Below, piece after piece: positions 17,128 to 23,107 of a stretch of DNA of 36,539 nt. Position 1 is the first letter of the stretch; each line of letters opens with the position of its first letter. This stretch comes from Thermovibrio sp. (lineage in GTDB: Bacteria > Aquificota > Aquificia > Desulfurobacteriales > Desulfurobacteriaceae): assembly GCA_015490195.1 (NCBI GenBank), contig WFYG01000011.1, positions 1-36,539 on the forward strand, given 5' to 3'. The position numbers were made by a program, and so were the translations under genes. The notes below the pieces were generated by a model. It saw nothing but the letters and a program-made list of their open reading frames with translations. It was not told where the DNA came from and ran no database searches.

Positions 17128-17156
17128 AATTCTAACAGGATTGGGGGAAACAATGA
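17128..17156 (-). promoter_or_regulatory. Possible minC promoter
   Basis: On the minus strand, TAGAAT (17133-17128) matches the -10 consensus at 5 of 6 positions, with TTCATT (17156-17151) 17 bases upstream as a poor -35. This would start the minCDE RNA about 16 bases before the minC ATG and lies across the start of speB. Evidence is only motif matching. Confidence 0.35.
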
Positions 17157-17956
17157 AGTTTCTATCTGCAAGCAGTGAGGGGAAGGTTACAGTTTTTGGA
17201 GTTCCTTATGATTCAACAACCTGTTTCAGGCCGGGAGCCCGTTTTGGCCCCGACGGTATCAGGTTTTTCTCTGAGAACCTGGAGGAGTACAGCCTCTCGC
17301 TTGGAAAATCTCTTGAAGAGGTTGATTTTTGCGACGCTGGAAATCTTGAGGTTTCGGCAGATCCCAAAGGTATGGTTGAATCTGTTTACTCTTTTGTGAA
17401 GAAGGTTGAGGTTCCGGTTCTCCTTGGTGGAGAGCATTCTGTGACTTACCCGGTTGTAAGGGCACTCTCTGAAAGGTATACCAATTTGACCGTTGTCCAC
17501 TTTGACGCCCACGCAGACCTGAGGGATAGCTACTCGGGCACTCCCTACTCTCACGCCTGCGTTATGAAGAGGGTTCTGGATTTGGGAGTTCCAGTTGTTC
17601 AGGTAGGTATAAGGAGTGCAACTAAAGAGGAGGCGGAGCTCCGCCAGAAGAACCCCAACATAACGGTTGTTGACTCCCTTTCCGAGCTTCTCTTTCTCCT
17701 TCCACGGATAAATACTCCCCTCTACTTCTCCATTGATATTGACTTCTTTGACCCTGCCTTTGCTCCCGGAACCGGAACTCCGGAGCCTCCCGGAGCATCT
17801 CCGGTTGAATTCTTTGACCTTATCTATAAATTACCAGCCGTCAGCGTAGTGGGCTTTGACGTTGTTGAGGTCTCTCCCCCTTACGACCCCAGCGGCATTA
17901 CCCAGATGCTTGCGGCGAAGATTGTAAGGGAGCTCTTAATAAAGTTCTGGGGGTGA
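17153..17956 (+). CDS. speB: Agmatinase-family ureohydrolase (probable aminopropylagmatine ureohydrolase)
   Basis: This is an arginase/agmatinase-family dimanganese hydrolase of 267 residues. Metal ligands are in place: GGEHS (His95), HFDAHADLRD (Asp118, His120, Asp122) and SIDIDFFDPAFAPGTGTPEPPG (Asp195, Asp197), with a late Glu in VVEVSPPYD. It releases urea from agmatine or, as in Thermus thermophilus, from N1-aminopropylagmatine to give spermidine. The second reaction is favoured by its operon with an aminopropyltransferase and bpsA, but sequence alone cannot fix the substrate. ATG 17153 is chosen over TTG 17141 from spacing to a GGGGG site. It overlaps the speE ribosome binding site. Confidence 0.9.
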   Translation: MKFLSASSEGKVTVFGVPYDSTTCFRPGARFGPDGIRFFSENLEEYSLSLGKSLEEVDFCDAGNLEVSADPKGMVESVYSFVKKVEVPVLLGGEHSVTYPVVRALSERYTNLTVVHFDAHADLRDSYSGTPYSHACVMKRVLDLGVPVVQVGIRSATKEEAELRQKNPNITVVDSLSELLFLLPRINTPLYFSIDIDFFDPAFAPGTGTPEPPGASPVEFFDLIYKLPAVSVVGFDVVEVSPPYDPSGITQMLAAKIVRELLIKFWG

Positions 17957-17958
17957 GA

Positions 17959-18822
17959 ATGCTCTGGTTTACCGAGTACTACTCTGGAGAGGGGATGGAG
18001 CTCTCCGGAACAGGCCTAACTGTTAAGGTGAAGTCTGCTATCAAGAAGAGAACGCCGTACCAGGAGCTCCTCCTCCTTGAGACAGAAGACTGGGGAAAAA
18101 TGCTTGTTCTGGACGGTGCCATTCAGACAACAGAGAGGGACGAGTTCATCTACCACGAAATGATAGTCCACCCTGCGGCCTTTACTTTTACCCGCCGGAT
18201 AGAGAGGGTACTTGTTATAGGAGGCGGAGACGGAGGAACCGTAAGAGAAGTTCTGAAGCACGAACCGAAACAGATAGATATGGTTGAGATAGACAGAGAT
18301 GTTGTTCGGTTTGCAGAGGAGCATCTACCCTCAATCTCCTGCGGCCTTAAAGATGAGAGAGTTAACCTGATATTTGGAGACGGAAGGGAGTTTGTAGAGA
18401 ATAAAGAGGGCGTTTACGACCTCATAATCGTTGATTGTTCAGACCCGATTGGCCCGTCAAAGGTTCTCTATGAAGAAGATTTTTATAAAGATGCTGCAAA
18501 GGCGTTGAAGCCCGATGGTATTTTTGTTACACAGTCTGAATCTCCCTTTGCCCAGAGGAATGTTCACATTCAAGTTGTTAGGGAGCTCTCTAAAGTCTTC
18601 AAAATTGTTCGCCCGTACCTTGCCTTTATTCCTACCTACCCTTCCGGTATGTGGAGCTTTACAATAGCCTCAAACAGGTTAGATCCTTTAGGGGCTGCTC
18701 CTTCTGCTTTGGGAAAGCTTTACAGAGAGTTTGTTGAGAAAAACGGAGAGCTTAAATACTACAACCCGGAAGTCCACTACGGAGCTTTTGCAATACCAAA
18801 CTTTGTATACAGGGAGGAGTAA
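17959..18822 (+). CDS. speE: Spermidine synthase-family aminopropyltransferase
   Basis: The enzyme transfers an aminopropyl group from decarboxylated S-adenosylmethionine to an amine, releasing methylthioadenosine. The 287-residue protein has the family motifs GGGDGG (88-93), VEID (109-112), GDGREF (140-145) and the active-site DCSDPIGP (159-166), then LYEEDFY and an aromatic binding loop. The acceptor could be putrescine or agmatine; the neighbouring speB-type gene suggests the agmatine-first route of thermophiles (inference). ATG 17959 is 2 bases after the speB stop, with GGGGGTGA as ribosome binding site; GTG 17953 is an alternative. bpsA follows after 2 bases. Confidence 0.93.
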   Translation: MLWFTEYYSGEGMELSGTGLTVKVKSAIKKRTPYQELLLLETEDWGKMLVLDGAIQTTERDEFIYHEMIVHPAAFTFTRRIERVLVIGGGDGGTVREVLKHEPKQIDMVEIDRDVVRFAEEHLPSISCGLKDERVNLIFGDGREFVENKEGVYDLIIVDCSDPIGPSKVLYEEDFYKDAAKALKPDGIFVTQSESPFAQRNVHIQVVRELSKVFKIVRPYLAFIPTYPSGMWSFTIASNRLDPLGAAPSALGKLYREFVEKNGELKYYNPEVHYGAFAIPNFVYREE

Positions 18823-18824
18823 AA

Positions 18825-19880
18825 ATGGAAATACTTGAACAGATCGCAAGGGAAGCGGAGGCCAACACACAGGTTCCCGCCTACTCCAGAAGCGTTGAAA
18901 AGGTTATCGCCGCTGTAATGTCCTCTCCTAATTTCTGGAAGATTGTTGACCTCTCAGACGAGCCCCTTCCCTTAGTTGCTGAGATCCTAAAGCTTTTAAA
19001 CAAGCATGACCTTGTTACCTTTGAGGGAAACCAGATACTCCTTACAGAGGCTGGGGCTGAGCTTGCTAAAAAGCTCGGGATTGAACCTTTTGTCTCCCAC
19101 AGGTGTCCAACCTGTAAGGGAAGGGGAGTAATCATTGATGACTCTTTAAAGCCTGCTTTTGAGAAATTCTTAAAGATTCAGGAGAATAGACCTCCTGCAA
19201 TTCACCAGTACGACCAGGGGTACGTTACCCCAGAAAACACCTTTGCCCGAGTTGCTCTTGCCGACGACAGGGGAGACCTGAGGGGTAAAAAGGTAGTAGT
19301 TCTTGGAGACGACGATCTTATGAGCATTGCCCTTGCCCTCTCTGGCCTTCCTGCAAAGGTGACAATCCTTGAGATTGACGAGAGGCTTGTAAATTTCATT
19401 AAGAAAGTTTCCGATGAGTACAACCTGAACATAGATGCCAGGGTTCACGACCTCCGCCAGCCCCTTCCTGAAGACGTTGTTGGAGCCTACGATACCTTCT
19501 TTACAGATCCACCTGAAACAGTTGAGGCAATAAAGGCCTTTGTGGGAAGAGGAGTTGCAACGCTCAAAGGTCCAAGGTGTGCCGGTTATTTCGGAGTTAC
19601 CCGCAGGGAATCTTCAGTTGACAAGTGGAGGAGGATCCAGGAAGTTCTGATTGACATGGGACTTGTCATTACTGATCTGCTTCACAACTTCAACGAGTAC
19701 GTTAACTGGGACTACTACCAGGAGATGAGAGGCTGGCAGCTTACCCCTGTTAAGGAGCCTCCGAAAGAGATATGGTACAGGTCAACCCAGTTCAGGGTTG
19801 AAACGGTTAGAGGATTTAAGGGCTTCAATGAGCCAATTGTTGGAGACATCTACAACGACGCGGAGAGCTCCACAACCTAA
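18825..19880 (+). CDS. bpsA: N4-bis(aminopropyl)spermidine synthase (branched-chain polyamine synthase)
   Basis: This 351-residue protein matches the BpsA family (formerly DUF43), which adds two aminopropyl groups to the N4 of spermidine to make quaternary branched polyamines that stabilise nucleic acids at high temperature. An N-terminal winged-helix-like region (about 20-90) is followed by CPTCKGRG (Cys94, Cys97), then the methyltransferase-like domain with the catalytic acidic motif VLGDDDLMS (161-164), LEIDER (182-187) and FTDPPE. It is the third gene of the speB-speE-bpsA operon, ahead of an intrinsic terminator. The family is known from Thermococcus, Thermus and other thermophiles, so this strongly suggests a thermophilic host. 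Confidence 0.93.
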   Translation: MEILEQIAREAEANTQVPAYSRSVEKVIAAVMSSPNFWKIVDLSDEPLPLVAEILKLLNKHDLVTFEGNQILLTEAGAELAKKLGIEPFVSHRCPTCKGRGVIIDDSLKPAFEKFLKIQENRPPAIHQYDQGYVTPENTFARVALADDRGDLRGKKVVVLGDDDLMSIALALSGLPAKVTILEIDERLVNFIKKVSDEYNLNIDARVHDLRQPLPEDVVGAYDTFFTDPPETVEAIKAFVGRGVATLKGPRCAGYFGVTRRESSVDKWRRIQEVLIDMGLVITDLLHNFNEYVNWDYYQEMRGWQLTPVKEPPKEIWYRSTQFRVETVRGFKGFNEPIVGDIYNDAESSTT

Positions 19881-19882
19881 AC

Positions 19883-20824
19883 CTATTCGGCGGGCTTTCT
19901 GCCCGCCCTTTTTATCATCCAGTTAAAGAGTTTAACAACAAACGGTCCAATCAGATTTTGAACGACGCTGTAAAAAATAGCCGGAAGAGCGGCGAGAGCT
20001 CCCCAGTGAGAAACCGCCAGAACAGTTGCAAGGCCTGAGTTCTGCATTGCCGTTTCAATTGAAATCGTTATCCTCTCAACCTTTGGAACTCCCAAAAATC
20101 TTGGAATGACGTATCCTAACCAGAAACCAAAGAGAAGATGAAGAAGAGAACCCAAGAGTAAAAGCTCAAAGGTTTTAAACGGCAAGGAGAGACTCTTTCC
20201 CCTTCCGGCCGAAACGACAAAACCGACAATTAAGACAACGGCAACTGTTGAATAGGCAGGGAGGTAGGGTTTTATCCTTTTAACCCTTTCACCAAACCTG
20301 CTGTTTATCCAGACTCCTAGAACGACGGGAATAAGGGTTATCTGAACCATATCTAAGAACAGCTTGAACGCATCCACTTTAACAATCTTTCCGGCAAACA
20401 CCTTCGTAAGGATTGGTGTAAGAACCGGCGAAATTAAGGTGTTTATTCCTGAAAGGGCTAAGGAAAGGACAAGATTTGCTCCTGCCAGGAAGTTGTAGAC
20501 GTTTGAGACAACCCCTGTAGGACAGGAACCTGTTAGAACTTGGCCTGCTATAAAGACTTCAGGTAGTCCTCTGTAAAGTTCTGTTGCAATGAGCCAGCCT
20601 AAAATCGGCATTACAGTGTACTGGGTGACAAGACCGATTAGAACAATTTTAGGTTTTTCAGCAAGGGATTTAAAGTCTTTAAATTTTAGAGTCAGACCCA
20701 TTGACAGAATAACGGAACCGAGCAGTGGTTTGATGACCGGTTTAAGTGGAAGAAATAAGTTGGGAAACGCGAGACTAACAGGTGTAATAATTAATACCCA
20801 CAGCCAGAGCAGAGAGCTTATCAC
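19883..20824 (-). CDS. Bile acid:sodium symporter (BASS) family transporter
   Basis: This is a 313-residue integral membrane protein with eight to ten hydrophobic segments. It matches the BASS/SBF fold: LLGSVILSMGLTLKFKDF near the N-terminus, GSCPTGVVSNVYNFLAGANLVLSLALSGINTLISP (the first discontinuous helix and Na-site region), and ISIETAMQNSGLATVLAV (the second). Family members carry organic anions such as pantoate, pyruvate or sulfur compounds with sodium; the substrate is not predictable here. The start is GTG 20824, 8 bases after GGAGG. It is convergent with bpsA, and its last codons double as that operon's terminator. Confidence 0.88.
   Translation of the reverse strand: MISSLLWLWVLIITPVSLAFPNLFLPLKPVIKPLLGSVILSMGLTLKFKDFKSLAEKPKIVLIGLVTQYTVMPILGWLIATELYRGLPEVFIAGQVLTGSCPTGVVSNVYNFLAGANLVLSLALSGINTLISPVLTPILTKVFAGKIVKVDAFKLFLDMVQITLIPVVLGVWINSRFGERVKRIKPYLPAYSTVAVVLIVGFVVSAGRGKSLSLPFKTFELLLLGSLLHLLFGFWLGYVIPRFLGVPKVERITISIETAMQNSGLATVLAVSHWGALAALPAIFYSVVQNLIGPFVVKLFNWMIKRAGRKPAE
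19889..19913 (+). terminator. Intrinsic terminator of the polyamine operon
   Basis: GGCGGGC and GCCCGCC form a 7-bp GC-only stem around a TTTCT loop, followed by CTTTTT. It starts 9 bases after the bpsA stop. The whole hairpin lies inside the 3' coding end of the convergent transporter gene, where it encodes the residues AGRKPA. Confidence 0.93.
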
Positions 20825-21750: not shown

Positions 21751-22623
21751 TCAAAGTTTAAACAGCCATTCTTTCCAGTTCATCCCTGCTTTACCCTTTC
21801 TCCTGTAGCGTTCCATCAGTTTTGGACACGGGCAGTTTCTTCCGTACCAGTTAAGCTTTTCTGTAACCTTTAAAACGATCTCCGGAAAAAGAGAGACGGC
21901 TCTATCAACCCTTTCCTTCTCTTCTTCCTTAAGCATTCCTTCAAAGAGAACTCCCTCTTTAAATACGTTCTCCACTATTCCCTCTGCGTAGTTTGTTACG
22001 TAGCAAAGGGTTCCGTAGCAAATTTCAAGTTCTCTTGCAAGGAACACCTCCGGAACAAGGGTCATTCCGACAAGGTCGGCTCCTAACCTTTCCAGTGCCT
22101 TTATTTCGGCCTTTGTTTCAAGTCTTGGGCCTTCCGTGCAGGCGTAAACGCCACCGGCGTGGAATCTCTCTCTTAACTCTGTTAGCGTCTCTTTAAGGGC
22201 ACTTCTAATTCCCGGGCAGAATAGAGGGTTCTGCCTTACAAACCCAAGGCCTCCGTTTTCAAAGAAGGTTTCCTTCCTTCCTCTTGTGAAGTCTAAAACG
22301 TCGTCTGGAATCACGAAATCCCCTGGTTTAAACTCTTTTCTAAGTGATCCCGGTCCCGTCCACGAGACGATTATCTCTACTCCTAACTCTTTTGCTGAGT
22401 AGATGTTTGCCCTGTAGTTAACGAACGGAGCTGTAACGTCGTAATCCCTCTCCCCGTGACGTGAGAGGAAGAGATACTCAAATCCGTTGGGGTGTTTAAT
22501 TCGGTAGATAGGATTTGAGAGACCGAAAGGAGAGCTTATCCGTTTAACCTCTAAAACTCTGCCGAACTTCTCCTTTTCCAGCGTGTAGGCCCCGCTTCCT
22601 CCAATAACGAGAACTTTAGCCAC
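21751..22623 (-). CDS. mtnP: Methylthioadenosine/purine nucleoside phosphorylase family protein
   Basis: This is a 290-residue PNP/MTAP-family phosphorylase, cleaving a nucleoside (probably 5'-methylthioadenosine or the inosine form) with phosphate. Motifs are VIGGSGAY at the start, [23 protein letters not shown] (phosphate and ribose site), [36 protein letters not shown] (base and 2'-OH site) and YVTNYAEG. The family signature often has RFET; RLET here is a small variation. MTA is made by both aminopropyltransferases in this window, which gives it a logical substrate. A CPCP motif near the C-terminus may be structural. The start is GTG 22623 after AAGGAG; it overlaps queF by 8 bases. Confidence 0.82.
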
Positions 22624-23107
22624 GGTTTCTCCTTATATCTGGAAGGGTTATTCTGTGAAGCTTAAATCTTTCTCTTGCTAATTCCTCTACCCAGCTGAGT
22701 TTTTTGTAACGCTGAACAAACGGGTCGATAGATATGCCACCTCTGGGATTGAACTCTCCATAAACTTCCAAGTAGAAAGGTTCAAGGAGGTTGAAAAGGT
22801 CGTCGGCAATCTGATTTACGGTGTCTTCGTGGAATCCTCTGGCGTTTCTAAAGGAGAATAGGTAGAGCTTTAAGGATTTGCTCTCAACCAGCCACTTGTC
22901 GGGTATGTACTGTATGTAGATGATTGCAAAGTCGGGCTGTCCTGTTATGGGGCATAGTGTTGTGAACTCTGGGCAGTTAAACGATACCCAGTAGAGTCTG
23001 TCGGGGAATTTGTTGGGGAACTTTTCAAGAACTTCTGGGCTGTAATTGTAAGTGTACTCGGTCTTTTTACCGAGTTTGGTTACGTTTCCGAACTCTTTTC
23101 TTTCCAA
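22616..23107 (-). CDS. queF: NADPH-dependent 7-cyano-7-deazaguanine reductase QueF
   Basis: QueF reduces preQ0 to preQ1 in queuosine biosynthesis, using its T-fold. The 163-residue length is that of the single-domain (unimodular) type. The catalytic segment [15 protein letters not shown] carries the nucleophilic Cys52 and the proton donor Asp59; [14 protein letters not shown] is the substrate/NADPH region and FHEDTVNQI follows. The start is TTG 23107, 7 bases after an AAGGAGCT site; no ATG fits. It forms a two-gene unit with mtnP, overlapping by 8 bases. No preQ1 riboswitch was recognisable upstream. Confidence 0.93.

Follow-up and report, generated by a model that had tools for sequence, protein, structure and literature searches.

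A 36,539-nucleotide stretch of Thermovibrio sp. DNA (hereafter called the window) carries three adjacent genes, speB, speE and bpsA, that very probably encode the last steps of branched-polyamine synthesis, in which spermidine is formed and then converted to a branched polyamine characteristic of thermophiles. The enzymes of this operon belong to known kinds. What our analysis adds is the lead that Aquificota may possess a lineage of arginine decarboxylases derived from SpeD. The operon would place branched-polyamine synthesis on a compact set of genes, conserved within a family of thermophilic bacteria that has cultured members; the closest named relatives of the organism are Desulfurobacteriaceae.

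In the route that we propose, a bona fide SpeD encoded on contig C36 would supply decarboxylated AdoMet, and a second, SpeDA-like SpeD encoded on contig C28 would supply agmatine by decarboxylating arginine. SpeE would use decarboxylated AdoMet to aminopropylate either agmatine or putrescine, and SpeB would remove urea from N1-aminopropylagmatine or agmatine, such that spermidine would be reached by both orders of these steps. Finally, BpsA would add two more aminopropyl groups to N4 of spermidine to yield N4-bis(aminopropyl)spermidine.

A conserved three-gene cluster

All three genes are intact, reside on the same strand and are separated by gaps of 2 nucleotides, as judged by the open reading frames of the window (Table 1). 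The sequence-only reading had placed a ureohydrolase, an aminopropyltransferase and a branched polyamine synthase side by side at positions 17153-19880. The reading frames indeed occupy these positions and give profile matches above the cut-offs, and the three enzyme identities are well supported by Pfam and NCBIfam profiles and by alignment to solved chains.

Table 1. Features of the speB-speE-bpsA region, numbered by position in the window
Feature	Position	Strand	Description
speB	17153..17956	+	ATG 17153, stop TGA 17954-17956; agmatinase-family ureohydrolase, 267 aa, by Pfam/NCBIfam profiles
speE	17959..18822	+	Aminopropyltransferase, 287 aa from ATG 17959 (289 aa if GTG 17953); stop TAA 18820-18822
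bpsA	18825..19880	+	ATG 18825; 351 aa, predicted to synthesise the branched-chain polyamine N4-bis(aminopropyl)spermidine
speB/speE junction	17945..17961	+	SD-like GGGGGTGAG (17949-17957) inside the speB end; stop 17954-17956; ATG 17959
speE/bpsA junction	18812..18827	+	SD-like GGGAGGAG (18812-18819); stop 18820-18822; ATG 18825
Intrinsic-terminator-like hairpin	19889..19907	+	7 G-C pairs, 5-nt loop, then CTTTTT; directly 3' of bpsA

We take the start of speE to be ATG 17959 rather than GTG 17953. An ATG located exactly 2 nucleotides past the speB stop codon is present at 11 of 17 compared junctions, and a GTG start that overlaps this stop codon is present at four, the window counted in; two of the junctions (L009 and L060) are probably from the same contig, each having 42,013 bases. 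Purine-rich runs that resemble GGGAGGAG also occur upstream of bpsA in relatives from the same family. Given the 2-nucleotide gaps and the SD-like GGGGGTGAG, translational coupling of the cluster is plausible.

The hairpin that follows bpsA sits within the 3' end of a convergent transporter gene, whose stop codon is at 19883. The region contains six terminator-like sites compared to 3.6 +/- 2.1 in shuffled sequences, and so the argument for this hairpin is its position and its all-GC stem, not the number of such sites. Furthermore, of the 13 genomes searched in the window's family (f1), 12 have speB, speE and bpsA collinear on a single contig within approximately 3 kb, and in the thirteenth (G002) speB runs off the contig end. 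The speE and bpsA genes also adjoin in genomes G015 and G018 of f3, another Aquificota family. From the gene spacing, the hairpin-plus-T site and the conserved order, we infer that the three genes form one transcript.

SpeB and SpeE

SpeB matches the Pfam Arginase family (PF00491) with 255.8 bits (E 6.8e-76) and is the sole match to this family in the genome; the Pfam cut-offs for Arginase, Spermine_synth and BpsA_C are 22-27 bits. It also scores 277 bits on the NCBIfam agmatinase model TIGR01230 (cut-off 174). The translation carries the sequences GGEHS, DAHADLRD and SIDIDFFDP, which we take to be metal-ligand motifs, and the predicted substrate of the enzyme is N1-aminopropylagmatine, agmatine or both.

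SpeE gives the best match in the genome to Spermine_synth (PF01564; 209.8-210.8 bits), exceeds the cut-off of the NCBIfam speE model TIGR00417 (303 bits versus 250), and has both the tetramerisation domain and the GGGDGG core. Its best solved chains are 1iy9 and 1inl (the latter presumably from Thermotoga), both of which are labelled spermidine synthases. The protein is predicted to be a spermidine and/or N1-aminopropylagmatine synthase. A point against this reading is that its letters GGGDGG and the Glu of VEID resemble a pattern reported for bacterial spermine synthases (Li et al., 2024), although chain 1inl has the same letters. A second aminopropyltransferase-like gene, which adjoins a recombinase gene on C36, codes for a 246-aa SpeE-like protein that scores 93 bits on PF01564 and whose best NCBIfam match (PRK03612) reaches 166.8 bits compared to a cut-off of 472.

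The order of the first two steps

We modestly favor an order wherein agmatine is aminopropylated before urea is removed. The same operon could also run by way of putrescine, with SpeB as an ordinary agmatinase and SpeE as an ordinary spermidine synthase, and this serious but less probable alternative agrees with a SpeB score above the agmatinase equivalog cut-off and with the labels of the best solved relatives of SpeE. However, in both Thermus and Thermococcus it is members of these enzyme families that catalyse the agmatine-first steps (PMC12979288), and SpeE from Bacillus subtilis itself produces N1-aminopropylagmatine (PMC11107197), and thus family matches of SpeB and SpeE do not discriminate between the two orders. 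The latter study, published in 2024, describes 17 of 18 bacterial spermidine synthases as also aminopropylating agmatine, with motifs that do not separate the two activities, and it provides no SpeE motif that distinguishes agmatine from putrescine use. We found no polyamine profile for the organism.

The Thermococcus kodakarensis pathway (PdaD, SpeE-like TK0147, SpeB-like TK0882 and BpsA TK1691) employs the same three downstream enzyme families. In that organism PdaD decarboxylates arginine (PMC12979288), whereas its family (PF01862) was not found here, and the TK numbers set the speE-like, speB-like and bpsA genes apart, whereas they form one cluster in the window. The chemistry favored above is also that proposed for the N1-aminopropylagmatine pathway of Thermus thermophilus (PMC12979288), whose BpsA (Tt-BpsA) is 43.9% identical to that of the window; the Thermus aminopropyltransferase is described as using spermidine too (PMC11107197).

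Decarboxylases elsewhere in the genome

The sequence-only reading had called the operon complete-looking and had named speA and speD as genes to look for elsewhere in the genome. Its view stands for the last three steps, whereas speD lies outside the cluster and no arginine decarboxylase of the searched families is assignable. Specifically, the bona fide SpeD on C36 scores 135 bits (136.5 bits on the NCBIfam model, cut-off 75.65). The PvlArgDC family (PF01862, PdaD family) has no match in 21 genomes. OKR_DC_1 (PF01276) is absent from the organism's own genome and is matched, weakly, in one of the 21 (G013), where the frame reads as an aminotransferase-type sugar enzyme. Neither of the two PF02784 genes in the organism's own genome is assignable as speA: one is LysA (525 bits), and the other, on contig C14, is LysA/FslC-like and scores 59 bits on the speA model compared to a cut-off of 624. 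Agmatine deiminase likewise has no match in this genome. With no gene of the searched families assignable as SpeA, PdaD, ornithine decarboxylase or agmatine deiminase, the diverged second SpeD becomes the candidate arginine decarboxylase.

A diverged second SpeD as candidate arginine decarboxylase

The evidence leans modestly toward the 175-aa second SpeD on C28 (positions 37641-38168 of that contig) being a pyruvoyl-dependent arginine decarboxylase that resembles SpeDA. For a count across 92 genomes of the phylum, second SpeDs were classed by bit score as type A (17 genomes) or type B (25 genomes). Sequences were read for 14 of the 17 type-A and nine of the 25 type-B proteins, along with a fifteenth type-A protein from a genome outside the 92 (G014); the f5 fragment L083 has no entry among them. 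The counterparts of the pyruvoyl Ser, the His and the Cys are retained in 15 of 15 type-A proteins (class 1b SpeD homologues). The counterparts of Phe49 and Pro51 are lost in all 15, and that of Pro71 is kept in all 15. Type-A proteins average 23% identity to bona fide SpeDs and fall just below the cut-off of the NCBIfam AdoMetDC model (70.8 bits versus 75.65), whereas one type-B protein exceeds it (88.3).

SpeB or AguA is present in 42 of 42 genomes with a diverged second SpeD and in three of 50 without one, a correlation over few lineages whose Fisher value is not a probability, since the 42 genomes represent about two lineages. This count leaves out an AguA match in G043 (26 bits over 41 positions). 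G027 (contamination 6), whose two SpeD matches reach 136 and 132 bits, was not scored as having a diverged one. According to Li et al., the presence of an agmatine-consuming partner predicts arginine rather than ornithine decarboxylase activity. These authors also describe one proline that separates AdoMetDC from arginine decarboxylase. Type A retains the proline of HTWPE, and if this is the same proline, then the criterion speaks against SpeDA. Our search of phage relatives of the second SpeD yielded one proven arginine decarboxylase, that of HTVC201P (PMC9992855); type A averages 19% identity to it, which is too distant for this protein to classify type A.

The genomic setting resembles that of SpeDA, the pyruvoyl arginine decarboxylases derived from AdoMetDC (Li et al., 2023): a second SpeD with retained pyruvoyl Ser, His and Cys accompanies a bona fide SpeD, the genome also encodes SpeE and SpeB, and neither SpeA nor SpeC can be assigned. 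The nearest described setting is that of Vampirovibrio, where two speD genes cluster with speE and speB (Li et al., 2023). Unlike SpeDA, the protein of f1 and its sister family f2 has approximately 37 additional residues ahead of the core, and unlike the arrangement in Vampirovibrio, the second SpeD in this genome is encoded on a different contig from speE and speB.

A rather unlikely reading is that the second SpeD has a regulatory role, is degenerate or serves as an AdoMet-specific isozyme, with agmatine being imported or made by another enzyme. The LysA/FslC-like protein on C14 might serve, since it is a PLP decarboxylase whose gene adjoins an ATP-grasp gene and a urea-transporter/M23 fusion. 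However, its low speA score argues against this role, the second SpeD keeps its catalytic Ser, His and Cys, and genomes G006, G013, G015 and G018 (98, 95, 99 and 99% complete) each have a single PF02784 match of LysA-like strength (209-230 bits), yet have BpsA and a second SpeD. It is quite improbable that the second SpeD instead acts on ornithine, as a decarboxylase of the SpeDC kind, and so yields putrescine in one step. Such SpeD-derived enzymes exist and are numerous (PMC10407285), and type A has diverged strongly from AdoMetDC, but the SpeB found in 17 of 17 type-A genomes would then be without agmatine, and the gene-content rule of Li et al. predicts an arginine decarboxylase.

If the C28 protein is an arginine decarboxylase, then arginine and AdoMet would both be decarboxylated by paralogous pyruvoyl enzymes within one pathway, the source of agmatine would be explained, and a new phylum would be added for AdoMetDC-derived arginine decarboxylases; Aquificota is not mentioned in the main text of the paper that defines these enzymes (zero occurrences of 'aquific'). 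More tentatively, the second SpeDs of f1 and f2, which carry the additional stretch ahead of the core, together with another type present in f3, could constitute undescribed AdoMetDC-derived arginine decarboxylase lineages that feed branched-polyamine synthesis in place of SpeA or PdaD. The phylum would then have three routes to spermidine, with type A plus SpeB, with type B plus AguA, or with neither and perhaps a PLP enzyme.

BpsA and its product

BpsA scores 347.4 bits on BpsA_C (cut-off 27) and matched no family in the NCBIfam search. Residues 6-351 align to 5xnc, the crystallised Thermococcus enzyme, with 53.9% identity (E 2.2e-123). The GDDD motif and the counterparts of Asp225, Glu259, Tyr290 and Tyr316, positioned by hand on this alignment, are retained; the roles of these active-site residues are described in PMC12979288. 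This identity and the retained residues make N4-bis(aminopropyl)spermidine the likely product, and the end product named in the sequence-only reading is well supported.

The same source describes five acidic C-terminal residues of Thermococcus BpsA as aminopropyl carriers. We matched these by motif because its numbering runs two below the count on the printed chain, and three of the five positions are acidic in the window (GDIYNDAESSTT) compared to Thermococcus (QELYDDEESSTT). The other two are Asn and Ala, identically so in those f1 sequences that extend as far as the C-terminus. These replacements might signal another or shorter branched product, such as N4-aminopropylspermidine, or another acceptor, which is very improbable given that the active-site acids and tyrosines are kept and that three carrier acids remain among the several described in Thermococcus (PMC12979288).

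The bpsA gene had also been put forward as a strong marker of thermophily. A 2026 review (PMC12979288) says this of bpsA orthologues, but a bare match to the family is no such marker, because distant relatives (24-31% identity) occur in six plasmid-collection records from Pseudomonas, Rhizobium, Sinorhizobium, Agrobacterium and Nonomuraea. A pattern search of viral contigs for BpsA relatives matched no stretch.

BpsA phylogeny

The BpsA proteins of f2, f3 and f4 belong to the same Pfam family and are 42-46% identical to that of the window (five proteins). Where the window protein has GDDD and YNDAESSTT, they have GEDD and YLDEEGSTT (four proteins read). The window protein is closer to the solved chains 5xnc (53.9%) and 2qm3 (53.5%) than to f2, f3 and f4 (41.9-45.8%). 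Despite this higher identity, we do not propose horizontal exchange of bpsA with Thermococcales, since a tree of only 17 sequences (IQ-TREE, LG+G4) lacks resolution at this point: f1 groups with other Aquificota with support of 46/66, and a grouping of f1 with Thermococcales is not rejected (AU 0.32). In contrast, a clade of f1 plus f2 is rejected (delta lnL 108, AU 1.8e-7), so bpsA was probably replaced in either f1 or f2. In the same tree, f2 joins f4 with support of 95/96.

The speB-speE-bpsA gene cluster

The sequence-only reading had proposed an operon of a ureohydrolase, an aminopropyltransferase and a branched polyamine synthase, and we find this operon to be real, conserved and correctly read, with parts that are ordinary. 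SpeB scores 255.8 bits with the Pfam Arginase model and 277 bits with NCBIfam agmatinase (cut-off 174), SpeE reaches 303 bits with NCBIfam speE (cut-off 250), and BpsA reaches 347 bits with Pfam BpsA_C (cut-off 27); an NCBIfam search with BpsA returned no family. Residues 6-351 of BpsA align with the solved Thermococcus chain 5xnc (E 2.2e-123, 53.9% identity). Of the residues named in a 2026 review (PMC12979288), the window protein and the Desulfurobacteriaceae relatives compared have the GDDD motif and equivalents of Asp225, Glu259, Tyr290 and Tyr316, except that BpsA of locus L010 ends before the two tyrosine positions. The C-terminal cluster of the window protein is GDIYNDAESSTT, with acids at three of five positions. 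Distant BpsA-family proteins (24-31% identity) occur in six plasmid-collection records (H84-H89) from Pseudomonas, Rhizobium, Sinorhizobium, Agrobacterium and Nonomuraea.

Features of the cluster, its surroundings and related loci (window positions unless a locus or contig is named)
Feature	Position	Strand or orientation	Remark
Small gene taken for minE		upstream of speB, divergent	
minD gene		upstream of speB, divergent	
minC-like gene		upstream of speB, divergent	84 bits, cut-off 95
speB, speE, bpsA	17153-19880	+	three intact genes, 2-nt gaps
Hairpin then T residues	19889-19907		closes the cluster
Bile-acid-symporter-family-like gene		downstream of bpsA, convergent	below cut-off
Methylthioadenosine-phosphorylase-like gene	21751-22623	-	TIGR01694 219 bits, cut-off 275
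queF	22616-23107		
MntA-like nucleotidyltransferase and HepT-like genes	L007:3569-4235		both below NCBIfam cut-off
IS110-like transposase gene	L014:2809-4086 (contig C36)		104 bits, cut-off 140
Second speD	L013:5642-6169 (contig C28)		
LysA/FslC-like gene and neighbours	L023:3133-7645 (contig C14)		
246-aa SpeE-like gene	L086:1728-2468 = C36:61727-62467		
Arginase-family gene of G019	L053:3672-4544		TIGR01230 (agmatinase) 148.7 of 174.3

A promoter scan, which says little for Aquificota, gave no sigma-70-like promoter upstream of speB. The start of speE varies among 17 Desulfurobacteriaceae junctions. A GTG overlapping the speB stop (17953 in the window) is found in four (the window, L006, L059 and L061), and an ATG lies exactly two bases past that stop in 11. 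In four others the distance between the stop and the nearest ATG is -1 to +3 bases, with a fitting or nearly fitting frame, and L008 and L062 have no clear start. We take ATG 17959 as the probable start in the window.

Methylthioadenosine (MTA) is the by-product of SpeE and BpsA, and the phosphorylase-like gene lies about 1.9 kb from bpsA. The next gene is queF. This neighbourhood is seen only in L004-L006 among the loci compared, several of which end too early to tell.

Conservation and lineages of the cluster

Profile matches to the three proteins are direct neighbours in 12 of 13 Desulfurobacteriaceae genomes; in the thirteenth (G002), speB reaches the contig end, speE and bpsA were not found, and the truncated SpeB is 92% identical to that of the window. 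The eight loci nearest by BpsA in the named collection come from Thermovibrio, Desulfurobacterium and Desulfurobacteriaceae MAGs. At family loci with all three genes, identity to the window is 84-97% for BpsA, 61-86% for SpeB and 60-93% for SpeE, and BpsA is thus the most conserved of the three. One uncultured Desulfurobacterium locus (L007) carries an MntA-like and a HepT-like gene between speE and bpsA.

Outside the family, genome G013 of the sister family in the same order has speB and speE about 2 kb apart on one contig and bpsA on another. In family f3 of the Aquificota, without SpeB, speE adjoins bpsA in G015 and G018 and is on a different contig in G016; in family f4 the two genes are apart. 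The window BpsA shares 42-46% identity with five BpsA proteins from the sister family, f3 and f4; comparisons of these five between families give 60-68%. Inheritance of bpsA within the order predicts a clade of Desulfurobacteriaceae and the sister family, and a topology test rejects that clade (AU 1.8e-7). The test does not separate a grouping of Desulfurobacteriaceae BpsA with other Aquificota from one with Thermococcales.

A diverged SpeD as candidate arginine decarboxylase

The interest of the finding lies in an unusual candidate arginine decarboxylase encoded outside the window. The sequence-only reading had named speA and speD as genes to be sought elsewhere in this genome (1.68 Mb in 46 contigs). 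A bona fide speD is indeed present on C36 (NCBIfam 136.5 bits, cut-off 75.65; 2iii match E 5e-49), just downstream of an IS110-like transposase gene, and no canonical arginine decarboxylase was recognised with PF02784, PF01276 or PF01862. PF01862 matches none of 21 genomes, PF01276 matches one that is not this genome, and PF02784 finds here only LysA and a LysA/FslC-like gene. The latter, a PLP decarboxylase gene on C14, stands together with genes for an ATP-grasp protein and for an M23 peptidase to which a urea-transporter domain is fused. PF04371 has no match in this genome, and the single arginase-family match is the operon speB.

The other of the two PF02675 (SpeD) matches, on C28, is a diverged 175-aa protein scoring 70.8 bits, below the NCBIfam cut-off; apart from this second SpeD, the families searched gave no recognisable source of agmatine or putrescine in this genome. 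Judged by translations, the gene of the second SpeD comes directly after one that reads as rplI, with rpsF- and ssb-like frames upstream, and faces an rsmI-like gene.

We aligned seven bona fide SpeDs, 15 diverged proteins of type A (Desulfurobacteriaceae and sister family), nine of type B (f3) and two phage proteins. No variation is seen at the positions matching the pyruvoyl Ser63, His68 and Cys83. The counterparts of Phe49, which we take from the Thermotoga structure to be the adenine stacking residue, and of Pro51 are kept in 7/7 bona fide SpeDs and lost in 15/15 type A and 9/9 type B proteins. All three groups retain the Pro71 counterpart, and both prolines differ in the protein of phage HTVC201P, a proven arginine decarboxylase. 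According to Li et al. 2023 (PMC10407285), one proline separates AdoMet decarboxylases from arginine decarboxylases; with the Pro51 counterpart lost and that of Pro71 retained, this criterion decides for neither activity in the second SpeD. The same source gives a gene-content rule for arginine decarboxylases (a second SpeD, no canonical SpeA/SpeC, and SpeB or AguA present), under which the second SpeD falls; 'Aquific' has no occurrence in its main text.

Gene content across 92 Aquificota genomes at least 90% complete is consistent with this assignment. Types A and B are here bit-score classes, with sequences read for 14 of 17 and 9 of 25 members. Type A occurs with SpeB, and AguA is absent, in all 16 Desulfurobacteriaceae and the one sister-family genome. 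Family f3 has type B in 25 of 26, AguA in 26 of 26 and SpeB in none; f4 has no diverged SpeD (0/43) and an arginase-family gene in two of 43; f5 lacks diverged SpeD, SpeB and AguA (0/6 each). An agmatine-consuming enzyme thus accompanies the diverged SpeD in 42/42 genomes, against 3/50 others. These genomes are related and the pattern reduces to few independent events, which means that the Fisher value (4.9e-23) is no probability. The 21-genome set includes three genomes of f4, each with a PF02784 protein of 193-196 bits; the two that were read (both 390 aa, with no NCBIfam model above its cut-off) we infer to be ornithine decarboxylases. G019, from f4, where a second SpeD was not found, has an arginase-family gene below every listed NCBIfam cut-off.

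Proposed route to branched polyamines

The second SpeD would convert arginine to agmatine, SpeE would combine agmatine with dcAdoMet to form N1-aminopropylagmatine, and SpeB would remove urea to yield spermidine, which BpsA would extend via N4-aminopropylspermidine to N4-bis(aminopropyl)spermidine. Alternatively, SpeB and SpeE might act in reverse order. Parts of Li et al. 2024 (PMC11107197) report that 17 of 18 spermidine synthases make N1-aminopropylagmatine and that no motif separates agmatine- from putrescine-using synthases, and the order is therefore unreadable from sequence. We lean to the agmatine-first order for two reasons: no gene could be assigned as an ornithine decarboxylase, and the 2026 review (PMC12979288) describes this route in Thermus and Thermococcus.

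Among the matches listed, no title or abstract pointed to a paper about Desulfurobacteriaceae polyamine genes or about an operon with this gene order. To judge by title, polyamine surveys by Hosoya et al. in 2004 and Hamana et al. in 1999 reportedly cover the order Aquificales and the genus Aquifex, respectively.

Other aminopropyltransferase-like genes

PF01564 has three matches in this genome: the operon speE (210.8 bits), a weak one of 18.6 bits, and one of 93 bits on C36. The C36 protein (246 aa, GGGDGL core) passes no NCBIfam cut-off, its best model being PRK03612 with 166.8 of 472 bits. It could be a second aminopropyltransferase, which leaves our weighing of the proposed route as it is. 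Its gene adjoins tyrosine-recombinase-like and transglycosylase-like genes, neighbours that would perhaps, even probably, place it on a mobile element. A different SpeE-like protein, a 520-aa membrane-fused aminopropyltransferase above cut-off, is encoded in genome G012.
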